DNA of 64,000 nucleotides from Deltaproteobacteria bacterium (GTDB lineage: Bacteria; Myxococcota_A; UBA796; GCA-2862545). The notes beneath the pieces were generated by a model, which saw nothing but the letters and a program-made list of their open reading frames with translations, made no database searches and was not told the origin of the DNA. Below, piece after piece: positions 1 through 5,277 of this stretch. Made by a program: the position numbers and the translations under genes. The stretch's first letter is position 1. Each line of letters starts with the position of its first letter. Location of the stretch: the NCBI GenBank assembly GCA_007693595.1, contig REDI01000048.1, positions 1 through 64,000 on the forward strand, read 5' to 3'.

Positions 1-55
1 GACCGCAACTCAAGCGACTTCGGTCGACCCGGACCGCAACTCAAGCGACTTCGGC
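1..55. repeat. 55-bp direct repeat, copy A, two 21-bp motifs
   Basis: The window opens with CCGCAACTCA-AGCGACTTCGG at 3-23 and again at 34-54, separated by the 10-nt spacer TCGACCCGGA, so the units repeat every 31 bp. The same 55 bases recur exactly at 4616-4670; homology stops at base 55 on the right and cannot be followed to the left. A diverged version in the opposite orientation lies at 4477-4528. Paired binding-site-like units of this kind are typical of transposon ends, but no transposase is recognisable next to this copy. On the minus strand each unit contains a TGA that closes reading frames with the residues AEVA. Confidence 0.85.
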
Positions 56-395
56 CGGCCGGGCCCGAGCGGAGCGGCGACATGCCGAGCTCGTCGAGCT
101 GCGACGGCGGACCGAGCTCGACGCCCTGCGCGCTCGGGCCCTCACCGAGGTGGGTGCGGTGCGGGAGGGCACGCTCTTCGACGCCCAGGTACGCGCCGCA
201 TTCCCCGCATCGCCCCGCGCGTCGACCACCCCATCGCGCGCCAAGCGCCTGTGCGCCCGCGACCGACATGAGCCCCCAAGCCGTTCGACGGCGCAACACC
301 TCCCCGCCACCAAGGTTAAACCGTACCGGCTCGTACACGTCGATGCGGAGATCCCCCAATGTGGTTCAAGAATATCGCCTCTATGTCAGGCATAA
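3..395 (+). other. Left-edge region, possible tail of a gene entering from the left
   Basis: No complete gene is seen in the first 358 bases. One plus-strand frame is open from base 3 to a TAA at 393-395. Its stretch at about 84-200 has natural-looking composition (AELVELRRRTELDALRARAL, alternating Leu, Glu and Arg as in a helix). After that it becomes Arg/Pro/Ser-rich and runs 37 nt into the next gene, which argues against it being coding to the end. It may be a degenerate C-terminal fragment linked to the repeat at 1-55. I do not recognise a family. Confidence 0.2.
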
Positions 396-2428
396 TGCTC
401 CTTTGTTGGTCGATCGCCTGCACCACCGACACCGAGCAGGCCTCGCCGCCCGTCGCCCTCGATGTCGATCGCCCCCTGCACGTCGAGCAGGTCTTCGGCA
501 ACGTCTCCGACGTCACGTTTCGACCCATCCACAGCGACGGCGCCCACGCGATCGCGATCGGCCAACGCAGATTCACGATCCCAGGGGGAGCCTCTTGGGC
601 GAGCCACACTCACCCACGGTACGCCGAGTGCTGGCTCACCCAAGACGGGGGCGCGTCGTGGAGTCCATGGACCTGCCCCGAGCTGGGCAGGTTCGTCGTC
701 GTCGCCCACGGTGCGGCGTTCATCACCGCAAACGCCGACGACCCCGGACTGTATCGCCAGGCCCTCCCCGACGGGTCGCCCGAGCGCGTCGTGAGCGGCG
801 AGATCCACGACGTGCACAAGGCCAGCGACGGCGCGATACTCGTCGAACTGGCAGACCGCACCTACCATGTCAGCACCGACGGGGGCGAGCGCTTCTCCCC
901 GTTGGACGAGGGCTCGCACGCCCGGCTCGCGGAGCTGGTCCGAGCCGAGGTGTCCAAGGCCGGGGGCGACGACCCCTTCGAGCGCGAGCGACATGCCAAT
1001 AGCGACCATGAATACCGTGTGCAGGCCATCTATCACGCCGACCCCCAGCTCCTCATGGTCCTGCGCATCCGATACTCTCTGGACGAGGACCTCTACGACT
1101 ACGGCCCACCCCCCGATCGCGCTGTCATCGTGCGGACCTCCGACGGGGGCGCCTCTTGGGAGCTCGTGCGCGTAGAGCAGGCCAATCCACGCGCACATCT
1201 GACCCCCTACCTCCTACCGGCCGTGCACGGGTTGCTCGCCCACGACACCACCGTCGCGCTGCTCACCAAGACCGCCGCCCCTCTCTCCCGCGACAAGGGC
1301 GAGACGTGGGAGGACGTCGGCGCCGGCATCTGGTCCGAAGCGGACTTGATCGCGGGTCCCCACGACTTCATGACCCTGAGCACCGCCCGGGGGCAAGGGA
1401 GCACCAGCACGCGCTATCCCGCGTGGTCCACCGCCCTCGCAGGCAACCACGAGGTGTGGCTCGCGGGCGGATCTCGGGGTCGCTTGGCCCGGTCCACCGA
1501 TCGCGGGCGCACCTGGTCCTCCCCGACCGCCCAGGATTTCTCGGCCGTCTGGCGGTCCGGCGAGGTGGCGATCGCCGCAGGCCTTGGCCCAGGCCTGCAC
1601 CGCTCCAAAGACGGCGGAAAGAGCTGGGACATCGTGGTACCACGCGATCCCGACGACACGCAGGAGCAGCGATGCTTGAAGACCCCGGACCACACCGTGC
1701 TCGGCGGCGACGACTCCGCGCTGTTCATCGGGGGATCCTTCAAGGACACCACCTTCCTCTGTCGCTCCTTGGATCGAGGCGAGAGCTGGGAGCAGGTGTG
1801 GTTCGGCGAGAAGGGCTCAGCGACCCCCTACCATCGCATCGAGAGCTTCCAGTTCGCGGGCGGGAGGGCGCTCCTGCTCACCGACCGCGCCCTGCTGCGA
1901 TCGGATGACCGTGGCGACTCCTGGAGCCCTGTGCCCCTGCCCGACTTCGACGCGCAGAAGCCCCCGAGCCCTCGAATGCCTGCGGGGGTCATGGCCTTCG
2001 ACGGCACCCGCGTGTTCATCGCCACCTGGTCCATGATCTGGCGATCCGACGACGCGGGGGAGACGTGGAGCCACGTGGCGCGCGAGCCCAGGTCGACCCT
2101 GTTGCGCGCCGCGGCGTTCCGCGGAGATACGCTGATCGTCGTCGGCAACGGTCAGTCGATCTTTCGGTCCACCGACGGGGGCGCCACCCTCGATAGGGTG
2201 CACGAGGGCGACGAGGCGCTCTTCGGGCTCACCGAGCGAGACGGGAACTGGGTCGCGGCCGGTGGGCTCGGTCGGGTGTTGCTGTCCACCGACGACGGCG
2301 CGTCGTGGACCGCCCTTGATTCGGGCACGGGGCACCACCTGTTGCGAGCCGTCGATCTGGCCCGCGACGGCAGCCTGCTGCTCGTCGGACACGGCGGCTA
2401 CATCGGGCGCGCGACCCAGACCCAGTGA
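359..2428 (+). CDS. Secreted BNR/Asp-box repeat lipoprotein
   Basis: Predicted cell-surface or periplasmic beta-propeller protein of 689 aa. The N-terminus MWFKNIASMSGIMLLCWSIAC ends in a plausible but non-ideal lipobox (S-I-A-C). About eleven Asp-box (BNR) motifs of the form S-x-D-x-G-x-[ST]-W follow along the whole length, for example SDGGASW, SRDKGETW, STDRGRTW, SKDGGKSW, SLDRGESW, SDDRGDSW, SDDAGETW and STDDGASW. Such repeats occur in sialidases and in the Ycf48/photosystem-stability-like propellers; no sialidase catalytic residues were identified, so enzymatic function is not claimed. GGAG at 350-353 supports the ATG at 359; an internal ATG at 383 is an alternative. The gene after it encodes another exported protein 48 nt downstream, so the two are probably co-transcribed. 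Confidence 0.85.
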   Translation: MWFKNIASMSGIMLLCWSIACTTDTEQASPPVALDVDRPLHVEQVFGNVSDVTFRPIHSDGAHAIAIGQRRFTIPGGASWASHTHPRYAECWLTQDGGASWSPWTCPELGRFVVVAHGAAFITANADDPGLYRQALPDGSPERVVSGEIHDVHKASDGAILVELADRTYHVSTDGGERFSPLDEGSHARLAELVRAEVSKAGGDDPFERERHANSDHEYRVQAIYHADPQLLMVLRIRYSLDEDLYDYGPPPDRAVIVRTSDGGASWELVRVEQANPRAHLTPYLLPAVHGLLAHDTTVALLTKTAAPLSRDKGETWEDVGAGIWSEADLIAGPHDFMTLSTARGQGSTSTRYPAWSTALAGNHEVWLAGGSRGRLARSTDRGRTWSSPTAQDFSAVWRSGEVAIAAGLGPGLHRSKDGGKSWDIVVPRDPDDTQEQRCLKTPDHTVLGGDDSALFIGGSFKDTTFLCRSLDRGESWEQVWFGEKGSATPYHRIESFQFAGGRALLLTDRALLRSDDRGDSWSPVPLPDFDAQKPPSPRMPAGVMAFDGTRVFIATWSMIWRSDDAGETWSHVAREPRSTLLRAAAFRGDTLIVVGNGQSIFRSTDGGATLDRVHEGDEALFGLTERDGNWVAAGGLGRVLLSTDDGASWTALDSGTGHHLLRAVDLARDGSLLLVGHGGYIGRATQTQ

Positions 2429-2476
2429 GCACACCTCCACGCCCATCGATCCCTCCCCCAGAACGAGCCTCCCACC

Positions 2477-3790
2477 ATGCATCGTCGCCACGTCCTCCTC
2501 GGCCTCGCCGCGCTCCTCGGCGCGATGGCGCTACCTGATCTCGCCCACGCAAACCCCCTCCCCGACGCCGACCTCCAGGCCGAGCGAGAGGCGCTCATCG
2601 CGCACGTGCGCGATCGGCTCCTGGGCTTCGACGCCATCGACCTGCTCGATCGCGTGCTCACGGATCTAAACTTTCCCAGGCGCGAGCGCACGATCGCCGA
2701 GCTCCGCGGGATCCTCGGGAACAAAGACGTGGGTCGCGGCTTTCGCTCGATCCAGGATCTCGGGGATGATGGCGAGTTGATGGGCGCGCTCCAGGGCTTC
2801 CTTACGCGAATGACGGACCCAACGTCGACCAAACGCTGGCTCCTACGCCTCGCCAAGCGCATCCCTGCGGACCCTGCCGCACGACAGGCCATGATCGAGC
2901 ACCTCTACACCGCGTGGTTGGGCCTCGACATGGATCGACTGCGCGCCCACGTCGCGCGCTACGATCGCGAGGATCTGGCGATCATCTACGGCCCCGTCAC
3001 CACCCTCCCCGAGGCCGCCGCCCTCGTCGTGCACGAGCCGATGGCCCTCTACCTTCAGCTCATCCACGGCCGTCGCGCCCAGGAGTGCTTCTTAGAGGGC
3101 CGATCGCCCCGGCGCGAGCTGCTCCGCGCCCTGCTGCGCCCCGAGATCAGCCGCGTCGCCCTCATCGGACATGGCGCGTGGTCGAGCTTCTCGCTGACGG
3201 GATGGTACAGCACGCCCACCGCCCTACGCGACCACGCCTGCGACCGCCTGCGCGCCGAGCCGAAAGAGGCGCTCCTCGAGCTCGCCAAACCCCCCTTCTA
3301 CTTTCTCCGACCCCTCACTTTTCACCGCAACTCCTTCGCAGAGGACGAGCTCTCGGCCGCCGTCGCCGCGCTCTACCCCTCCCCTGCGCGGCGAGCCCAG
3401 GTTCGTAAGGAGCTCATCGTTCGACACACCTGCGGGAGCAGCCGCTATCGCTACGGGGAGCCAAAGCTGGCGTGGGCGATGCTGGATGGCGACGAGATCG
3501 ACGGGCTCAGCATGGACAACGACGGCTTCTCCGCAGCGCGACCCCAAGACCGCGGGCGCTTCGAGCAGGCGGTCGAGGCCTGGCTCGCCGACACCGCCAT
3601 CACACCGCGCGAGGGCCCGGCCTTCGGGGAGTGCCTCGTCGAGGACCCAAGAGCGACCCGCGGCTACGAAGGGGGTTCGTGGCTCGCCGACTTCTTGGAG
3701 GACCCCGTCCCCGCGTGGTCGCCGGCCCACCCTGCCTGGGCGAGATCTCGCGAGGCGCCTGCACCGCCAGCGTCGGCCGATACCCCTTGA
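2477..3790 (+). CDS. Exported protein of unknown function
   Basis: A 437-aa protein with a classical signal peptide (MHRRHVLLGLAALLGAMA, then an A-H-A-type cleavage site near residue 25) and a mature part rich in Leu, Arg, Asp and Glu that looks helical and soluble. I do not recognise the family. The central part contains LIGHGAW, superficially like a hydrolase nucleophile loop but without the Gly-x-Ser-x-Gly pattern. No strong Shine-Dalgarno precedes the ATG. It follows the Asp-box lipoprotein in the same direction and is itself followed by a GC-rich hairpin at 3808-3827, so the two genes probably form one transcription unit delivering two envelope proteins. Confidence 0.75.
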   Translation: MHRRHVLLGLAALLGAMALPDLAHANPLPDADLQAEREALIAHVRDRLLGFDAIDLLDRVLTDLNFPRRERTIAELRGILGNKDVGRGFRSIQDLGDDGELMGALQGFLTRMTDPTSTKRWLLRLAKRIPADPAARQAMIEHLYTAWLGLDMDRLRAHVARYDREDLAIIYGPVTTLPEAAALVVHEPMALYLQLIHGRRAQECFLEGRSPRRELLRALLRPEISRVALIGHGAWSSFSLTGWYSTPTALRDHACDRLRAEPKEALLELAKPPFYFLRPLTFHRNSFAEDELSAAVAALYPSPARRAQVRKELIVRHTCGSSRYRYGEPKLAWAMLDGDEIDGLSMDNDGFSAARPQDRGRFEQAVEAWLADTAITPREGPAFGECLVEDPRATRGYEGGSWLADFLEDPVPAWSPAHPAWARSREAPAPPASADTP

Positions 3791-3807
3791 GTCCCTGGGC
3801 TCCGCAC

Positions 3808-3827
3808 CTCCGCCCCGACGGGCGGAG
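3808..3827 (+). terminator. GC-rich hairpin after the 2477-3790 gene
   Basis: CTCCGCCC and GGGCGGAG form a perfect 8-bp stem around the tetraloop CGAC, starting 18 nt after the stop codon. A larger alternative stem (GGGCTCCGC with GCGGAGCCC, 3797-3830) encloses it. There is no T-run, so this is a terminator-like structure only. Confidence 0.45.
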
Positions 3828-3979
3828 CCCCGATCCGCGTGGGCGCTTGTCGACCACTGTGTGCGTGAGGCGGGGCGCGCGAGGCTCTGAGCCAGGTCAG
3901 CGCCGCTCGAAGCGACCCGGTGAGGGAGCCCCGCCACCTCGGATGGGCTCGACTCAGCCAGCCGGCACAGCCTTGGCAA

Positions 3980-4477
3980 TCAGGAGTCGCATCGCCGCGA
4001 GTCGCTCGCGATGGGGCACGGCGTACTCGCGTGAACGCGGCGCGCAGCGAGACGGAGGAAGGCTGTCTGCTCTCCTCGCGGCATCTCCTCGATGACATCG
4101 GCCGTCGCGAGCAGCCAGAAGGTCCGACCGATGCCCCTTCGGGCCTCCATCGCCTTGATGAAGTTGAGCGTGATCCTACCTCCCAGGTCGTCGGCCTCCT
4201 CGTCTGCCGCGTCGCGCTGGCGATCGAGCTGTGCCAACGCCATGTCGCGTGCCAGCAGCCACTCATGAACCAGCGCCTGAGCGATCTCCCACCCTTCTCG
4301 CTCCTGGGCGATGTTCTTGACGATACCTCGCAGATGGCGTGCATCGACACCATCGGGCAGGGTCCCTGCCTTCTTCTTGCCCTCGAAGACGGCGACGCCC
4401 TCGGGAGGCCAGGAGCCGTCTGACTTTATCCCCGATCGTGCGAATGCAAGCGTCAGTCCGGCCGCGTCGAGCCCCAC
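3980..4477 (-). CDS. Small ORF, possible remnant of a mobile-element protein
   Basis: A 165-aa frame on the minus strand with natural composition: an N-terminal stretch (GVAVFEGKKKAGTLPDGVDA), a long amphipathic helical middle rich in Glu, Arg, Ala and Leu, and a basic end (LRLAARRVHASTP). The GTG start coincides with the first base of the 21-bp motif at 4477, so the N-terminus may have been cut by that element. I do not recognise the family securely. The position between 21-bp motif clusters makes a mobile-element accessory protein a reasonable guess. Nothing on the opposite strand here looks better. Confidence 0.45.
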   Translation of the reverse strand: MGLDAAGLTLAFARSGIKSDGSWPPEGVAVFEGKKKAGTLPDGVDARHLRGIVKNIAQEREGWEIAQALVHEWLLARDMALAQLDRQRDAADEEADDLGGRITLNFIKAMEARRGIGRTFWLLATADVIEEMPRGEQTAFLRLAARRVHASTPCPIASDSRRCDS

Positions 4478-4528
4478 CGTAGTCCGCTGAGTTGCGGTGT
4501 CCTCGGACCGTAGTCCGCTGAGTTGCGG
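4477..4528. repeat. Pair of 21-bp motifs, inverted relative to 1-55
   Basis: CCGTAGTCCG-CTGAGTTGCGG occurs at 4477-4497 and 4508-4528 with a 10-nt spacer (TGTCCTCGGA). The reverse complement of the 1-55 unit matches this unit at 17 of 21 positions, and unit plus spacer lengths are identical (21+10+21). The two clusters 4477-4528 and 4618-4669 therefore face each other as imperfect inverted repeats about 89 bp apart. Confidence 0.8.
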
Positions 4529-4615
4529 CCTTTCGGTCTCTCCCGCAGACTGAACGAGGACGCCCTACGAGCCAACGCCAGGAATAGGGAACCCTTACTC
4601 CTCGCGAGGGGGCCG

Positions 4616-4670
4616 GACCGCAACTCAAGCGACTTCGGTCGACCCGGACCGCAACTCAAGCGACTTCGGC
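4616..4670. repeat. 55-bp direct repeat, copy B
   Basis: Identical over 55 bases to positions 1-55 and containing two 21-bp units at 4618-4638 and 4649-4669. The 87 bases between this copy and the 4477-4528 pair (4529-4615) contain no gene. Two exact copies 4.6 kb apart in a region of accessory-looking genes suggest recent duplication or transposition of the motif block. Confidence 0.85.
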
Positions 4671-4810
4671 GCTCTCGGCTGACTTGGAGTCGTTGAGGAC
4701 CTTCTTGCCCGGCTCCAGGCCGGGGGTGACCGCAAGGCGGATCGCGAGCTCCGCGCCCATGCCCTCCACCTCGACTCCGTCCTCTGCTGGCTCAAAGGCC
4801 TCAGCGGGCC
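4656..4810 (-). pseudogene. Possible C-terminal gene fragment ending in the 21-bp motif
   Basis: Read on the minus strand, about 50 codons upstream of a TGA inside the 21-bp motif have ordinary protein composition (EDGVEVEGMGAELAIRLAV, then TPGLEPGKKVLNDSKSAESAEVA), while further upstream the frame is only the 81-bp tandem array. There is no plausible start codon outside the array. It may be the truncated end of a gene whose 5' part was replaced by the array, or chance. The family is not recognised. Confidence 0.2.
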
Positions 4811-4819
4811 GCCTCTGAC

Positions 4820-5198
4820 CCTTCGCAAGCGAGCCAGCGGCGAAGCGCGCAGCGAGGCCCAGCCGAGCGAAGCAAGTGCATGGACCGCGTTGGCTCTGAA
4901 CCTTCGCAAGCGAGCCAGCGGCGAAGCGCGCAGCGAGGCCCAGCCGAGCGAAGCAAGTGCATGGACCGCGTTGGCTCTGAACCTTCGCAAGCGAGCCAGC
5001 GGCGAAGCGCGCAGCGAGGCCCAGCCGAGCGAAGCAAGTGCATGGACCGCGTTGGCTCTGAACCTTCGCAAGCGAGCCAGCGGCGAAGCGCGCAGCGAGG
5101 CCCAGCCGAGCGAAGCAAGTGCATGGACCGCGTTGGCTCTGAACCTTCGCAAGCGAGCCAGCGGCGAAGCGCGCAGCGAGGCGCAGCCGAGCGAAGCA
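4820..5198. repeat. 81-bp tandem repeat array (4 full units plus 55 bp)
   Basis: Units start at 4820, 4901, 4982, 5063 and 5144, each beginning CCTTCGCAAGCGAGCCAGCG. The first four are full length and the fifth stops after 55 bp with a single C-to-G change (GAGGCCCAG to GAGGCGCAG). Each unit contains CTTCGC and GCGAAG half-sites that can pair. Because 81 is a multiple of three, several frames stay open on both strands across the array; those frames are artefacts of the repeat, not genes. The array lies immediately 3' of tRNA-Val on that gene's strand. Confidence 0.95.
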
Positions 5199-5205
5199 AA
5201 AAGTA

Positions 5206-5277
5206 TGGCCGCTACTGGGTTCGAACCAGTGACTTCCACCGTGTGAAGGTGGCACTCTCCCACTGAGTTAAGCGGCC
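5206..5277 (-). tRNA. tRNA-Val (anticodon CAC)
   Basis: On the minus strand the sequence folds as a complete 72-nt tRNA. The 7-bp acceptor stem is GGCCGCT with AGCGGCC plus discriminator A. The anticodon arm is CCACC-TTCACAC-GGTGG, giving anticodon CAC, and the T loop is GGTTCGAACC. CCA is not encoded; a short T-run (TACTTTTTG) follows and may act as terminator. Valine with CAC fits both the anticodon and the acceptor sequence. Confidence 0.97.

Follow-up and report, generated by a model that had tools for sequence, protein, structure and literature searches.

What do the paired 21-bp motifs at the start of this 64,000-nucleotide stretch of DNA (the window) represent? The first nucleotide of the window is also the first of contig C15, in an assembly of a 4.9-Mb genome (97 contigs, 98% complete). 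The initial annotation described six copies of the motif as three pairs bracketing an accessory block, and proposed either transposon ends of the Tn7/Mu or Tn552 type, possibly non-autonomous, or a different kind of motif system. All six copies are indeed present, at 3-23, 34-54, 4477-4497, 4508-4528, 4618-4638, and 4649-4669, with a 31-bp period in every pair; the units at 4477 and 4508 are inverted and match the others at 17 of 21 positions, and 1-55 is identical to 4616-4670. The coordinates of the three pairs are right, but 4477-4528 and 4618-4669 form one composite site instead of two independent pairs. The pair at 1-55 (minus strand) is real, but since the window starts at base 1 of the contig, it is only the right arm array, with two inverted units, of a site that the contig start cuts off.

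The complete site, from 4477 to 4669, consists of direct 21-bp units with a 31-bp period, a centre containing a core of about 20 bp, and the same type of units in inverted orientation. On the plus strand, the left arm comprises the outer unit CCGTAGTCCGCTGAGTTGCGG (4477-4497) and, 31 bp from it, the inner unit (4508-4528). The centre (4529-4617) is 89 bp long, compared to 91 bp in most other sites, and carries the core ACGAGCCAACGCCAGGAATA (4567-4586, plus strand), for which the order-wide consensus is about ACGAnCgAACGCCgrTTTTC. The inner and outer units of the right arm (4618-4638 and 4649-4669) lie on the minus strand. The left flank (4390-4476, plus strand) is 93% identical, arm included, to the flank of the site at the end of contig C67, which suggests that flank and site were copied together here. 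Judging from the sequence shared by the C67 end and the complete site of the window (C15b), the C67 end is probably the missing left half of the site at 1-55. Elsewhere in the window, an 81-bp repeat occurs in five tandem copies, up to 99% identical (4732-5217), abutting a tRNA-Val gene (5206-5277, minus strand), and 359-2428 encodes a putative lipoprotein with BNR/Sortilin-Vps10-like repeats, whose neighbour is a 437-residue protein without Pfam match.

The motif is not confined to the window. With up to 3 mismatches allowed, a search of both strands of the whole genome found the two-unit pattern at 76 places (a near-palindromic copy is counted once per strand), against 0 for a reversed-pattern control, which excludes chance as the origin of the repeat pattern. 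Taking the truncated C67 and C15 ends as a single site, there are about 17 sites, distributed over 14 contigs. They are thus neither specific to this locus nor scattered at random with variable spacing. The unit has the consensus CCGWAGTC-N5-RAYTKCGG and occurs in arrays of one to five copies at 31 bp, which face an inverted array over a centre of mostly 91 bp. Between the inner units, the distance from start to start is 112 bp in the majority of sites; values of 111 and 110 and a single 101 also occur, and the number of outer units varies between sites.

Three subfamilies of centres (A, B1, and B2) and singletons can be distinguished, with a common core that starts near position 38; the cores of C10a, C10b, and C58 were placed by alignment, as automated location misplaces these three. 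Outside arms and core, 11 of 105 pairs of centres are homologous when compared to the best shuffle, and some sites of subfamilies A, B1, and B2 were copied fairly recently. A decayed copy is present at C76b. When the outer flanks of 15 sites were compared, no common terminus and no visible target-site duplication were found.

Several further features were observed around these sites. At L074 (C6, 231-282), two degenerate units ending in GAGTGTCCG/GAATGTCCG are closer to the arm units of genome G001 than to the families of this genome. A repeat of about 90 bp, 94-99% identical, occurs on three contigs (L038 1-94, L081 121-214, and L077 1513-1599), and on C57 it intrudes into an arm array at its outer end, a pattern suggestive of the insertion of another element. 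In the L078 and L085 sites (C58, C19), the arm types are swapped relative to the orientation of the core (C19 compared to C15b), as would result from an inversion of the core between the arms.

The genome encodes three genes resembling REP-associated tyrosine transposases (RAYTs), two of which directly adjoin sites: P0002, with sites C10a and C10b on either side, and P0001, to the left of C67a. Both proteins contain the HUH motif (MPNHVH/MPDHLH) and the catalytic tyrosine with the class 2 signature Y---NP (YVHLNPC); in most strong homologs the distance from MP[DN]H[VILA]H to Y[VI]HLNPC is 57-63 residues. The NCBIfam model NF047646 (REP-associated tyrosine transposase) matches 10 of 10 aligned members below its cut-off (best E 2.4e-12; 37-38 bits for P0001 and P0002, cut-off 80), the family profile matches TnpA_REP 4er8 with an E of 7e-8, and a search of the genome with Pfam Y1_Tnp returned no match at E≤0.001. 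The proteins carry a long C-terminal extension in which all helix-turn-helix (HTH) matches (HTH_23, Xre-like, and IclR type) are weak and below cut-off. Judged by published descriptions, the enzyme is probably a RAYT of group 1, or TIRYT. The third gene, at L151 (C52, contig coordinates 2340-3257), is a RAYT pseudogene with three internal stops that is 56% identical to P0002; its contig, 4 kb long, shows no recognised site. No intact RAYT gene was found in this genome for subfamily B1. At E≤1e-25, the RAYT family occurs in 25 of 379 genomes of the phylum sample, all from the family or order of the source genome. The viral contigs searched contained no relative, and a homolog on a Rhodospirillum rubrum plasmid has no site.

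Throughout the order, homologous RAYT genes are found next to sites that share this geometry but have lineage-specific arm sequences. Loci were scored for two direct and two inverted 20-nt windows at periods of 24 to 41, and with thresholds chosen after the scores had been seen, a composite site with a best period of 31 or 32 was recognised in 25 of 61 RAYT loci (scores 54-73). The highest score was 52 among 183 shuffles and likewise among 40 of 41 control loci, the one outlier (L099) being a real site in G009, a genome from another genus of the family. Six RAYT loci score 54-58 at other, scattered periods. A site accompanies 23 of the 37 strong homologs (E<1e-30), and two further loci score 68 and 62 with period 31; no site was recognised near the other 14 strong homologs, which include pseudogenes and genes at contig ends. 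A matrix trained on the source genome alone located the core at the axis in 14 of 24 test loci (p<0.02); in about 10 of 24, the core was weak or unrecognised.

The arms differ between genera more than the geometry does. The CCGTAG tag is confined to the genus of the source genome, and the units of other genera lack this tag, many of them not being palindromic. The exact pattern of the source genome gave no match in GTDB r220 and viral contigs, and a relaxed pattern matched only a marine metagenome bin (run ERR599030), which appears to be the same-genus genome G001. Weak R1 model matches outside the genus were at chance level in the geometry test, except L099. Arm similarity correlates with RAYT similarity (Mantel p=0.0005), about as strongly for the catalytic part as for the C-terminal part; the HTH is therefore not singled out, and the correlation may simply follow ancestry.

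G009 offers an independent view of these sites. The arm unit beside one of its RAYT genes is present in 88 copies in G009, compared to 0-3 in each of 59 other genomes, and a G009 RAYT gene lies between two sites, like P0002. Among the 18 sites read, the direct spacing is 31 in 36 of 36 cases, and the inverted inner spacing is 112 in fourteen, 101 in three, and 111 in one. Where the core is recognised (two of the 18 sites lack a clear one), its distance to one arm is 31, 41, or 52 bp and its distance to the opposite arm 38, 48-49, or 59 bp, which corresponds to steps of 10-11 bp, about one helical turn. C19 of the source genome, with its spacing of 101, obeys the same rule. Outside arms and core, none of the 153 comparisons between G009 centres exceeds the similarity of the best shuffle, and the facing arms show no hairpin-type pairing covariation (p=0.75). 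The retention of arms and core against otherwise diverged centres speaks for selection acting on every site, and from their sequences the G009 sites look old and individually maintained. Most of them are solitary on long contigs, so that the bracketing of an accessory block in the window looks incidental.

Taken together, these observations make it likely, in our view, that the motif represents one arm unit within a dispersed, duplex, helically phased site for a domesticated HUH RAYT with a putative C-terminal HTH. RAYT subunits would bind the arm units through the HTH domain, and the 31-bp spacing, about three helical turns, would place them on one face of the DNA. The two inverted stacks would then meet over the core, which the HUH domain would recognise and probably nick or rejoin. 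The strict spacing, the helical quantisation, and the missing covariation favour such a duplex nucleoprotein site over a single-strand hairpin. The helically spaced protein-binding arrays of the initial annotation, and its suggestion of a different kind of motif system, fit this geometry well. A more specific version, in which selection maintains about 20 four-arm sites throughout the genome and the RAYT complex works for the host, in chromosome organisation, repair, or ordered recombination, and not for its own spread, is possible but is put forward only tentatively.

Alternatively, the sites could be selfish miniature elements, REPIN- or MITE-like, that are copied by the RAYT as single-strand hairpins and have no host role. 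The recent copies in the source genome, with their 11 homologous pairs of centres, and the decayed copy at C76b agree with this, as does the known dispersal of REPs and TIR families (PMC3733652, PMC3116915). The inverted arms also fold well as a single strand (z -4.2), although any inverted arrays would. Nevertheless, we regard a purely selfish origin as doubtful, because the G009 centres share no sequence outside the core while their arms are intact, and their facing arms do not covary while their spacing is quantised by the helical turn, all of which points to duplex binding and selection per site. Selection at each site, as in G009, and recent copying, as in the source genome, may both operate.

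It is quite improbable that the sites are integron- or att-like sequences at which mobile gene cassettes recombine, the accessory genes between sites being their cargo. Several sites in the same orientation do lie 1-9 kb apart with accessory genes between them (C16, C67/C15, and C10), and an asymmetric core between inverted arms recalls att sites. However, the consistently associated enzyme is RAYT-like, and the G009 sites mostly stand alone. A tyrosine recombinase acting on att or integron sites was discarded because the assembly encodes just two Phage_integrase (PF00589) proteins, both away from the sites, although at 98% completeness a further one could have been missed. Large serine recombinases were also considered as the site enzyme; the genome has two, one of them beside a tRNA-Pro gene on C67, and neither is linked to the sites. 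The C67 gene (L039, 1665-3338) overlaps with its 3' end the tRNA-Pro gene (3216-3292, minus strand), an arrangement suggestive of the border of an integrated element.

Operators of a transcription regulator, near RAYT genes by accident, would also explain bipartite units with helical spacing, which resemble regulator sites. This is very unlikely, since RAYT genes throughout the order adjoin such sites with lineage-specific arms and since, according to rough gene calls, most G009 sites separate convergent or co-directional genes and few are located between divergent promoters, with 10 of 18 no more than 35 bp from a predicted stop codon. Finally, ends of a Tn7/Mu/Tn552-type transposon or of a non-autonomous derivative share arrays of protein-binding sites of roughly 20 bp (about 22 bp), inverted between the two sides, but are extremely unlikely here, because the arrays face each other over a core across about 90 bp, the 15 sites compared have neither common termini nor visible target duplications, the number of outer units is variable, and the enzyme found with the sites is of the HUH/Y1 RAYT-like type, with no DDE transposase among about 30 scanned ORFs neighbouring sites.

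Our preferred reading, a duplex site for an HTH-bearing RAYT, can be compared to known systems. TIRYTs (TIRtrons) are RAYT-like genes flanked by inverted repeats that are not REPs (Di Nocera 2013, PMC3733652). Most of them have been equated with subclass 2.1 of TnpA_Y1, which corresponds to RAYT group 1, has C-terminal HTH-like domains, and for which no REP-like sequences were found (Quentin 2018, PMC6006769). The present proteins share with them the RAYT-like HUH/Y domain, the long C-terminal extension, here putatively HTH-like, and flanking inverted repeats instead of GTAG REPs; indeed, inverted repeats unrelated to GTAG REPs flank both P0002 (C10a/C10b) and the G009 RAYT. Some TIRYT inverted repeats are also moderately abundant families, in dimers or clusters. 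In contrast, the papers on TIRYTs and subclass 2.1 describe terminal inverted repeats, many with the consensus GGGGWSAS, without the 31-bp arm arrays, the fixed 112/101 spacing, or the conserved core that are all present here.

REPtrons and the REP, BIME, and REPIN sequences associated with TnpA_REP (Nunvar 2010, PMC2817692; Bertels and Rainey 2011, PMC3116915) are similar in that flanking inverted repeats also occur in intergenic regions, each repeat type is linked to its own RAYT, and two inverted repeats lie close together. REPs and REPINs are, however, GT(A/G)G-tagged palindromes that fold as hairpins, whereas the arm units do not have this form: they are often non-palindromic, lack a general GTAG tag outside the genus of the source genome, show no pairing constraint in G009, and flank a conserved core. 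In the literature searched, that is, openly accessible main texts, we found no description of the four-arm architecture.

Why hosts keep RAYT genes is an open question (PMC6006769). The fixed architecture and conserved core provide a concrete, testable DNA substrate for HTH-bearing RAYTs, a large group reported to lack REP-like partners, and the occurrence of the same measurements with different arms in related genera shows what form the probable DNA partner of this transposase family takes. The geometry can be searched for in other phyla independently of the arm sequence. The diverged centres in G009 make selection per site, and hence a host role, directly testable.
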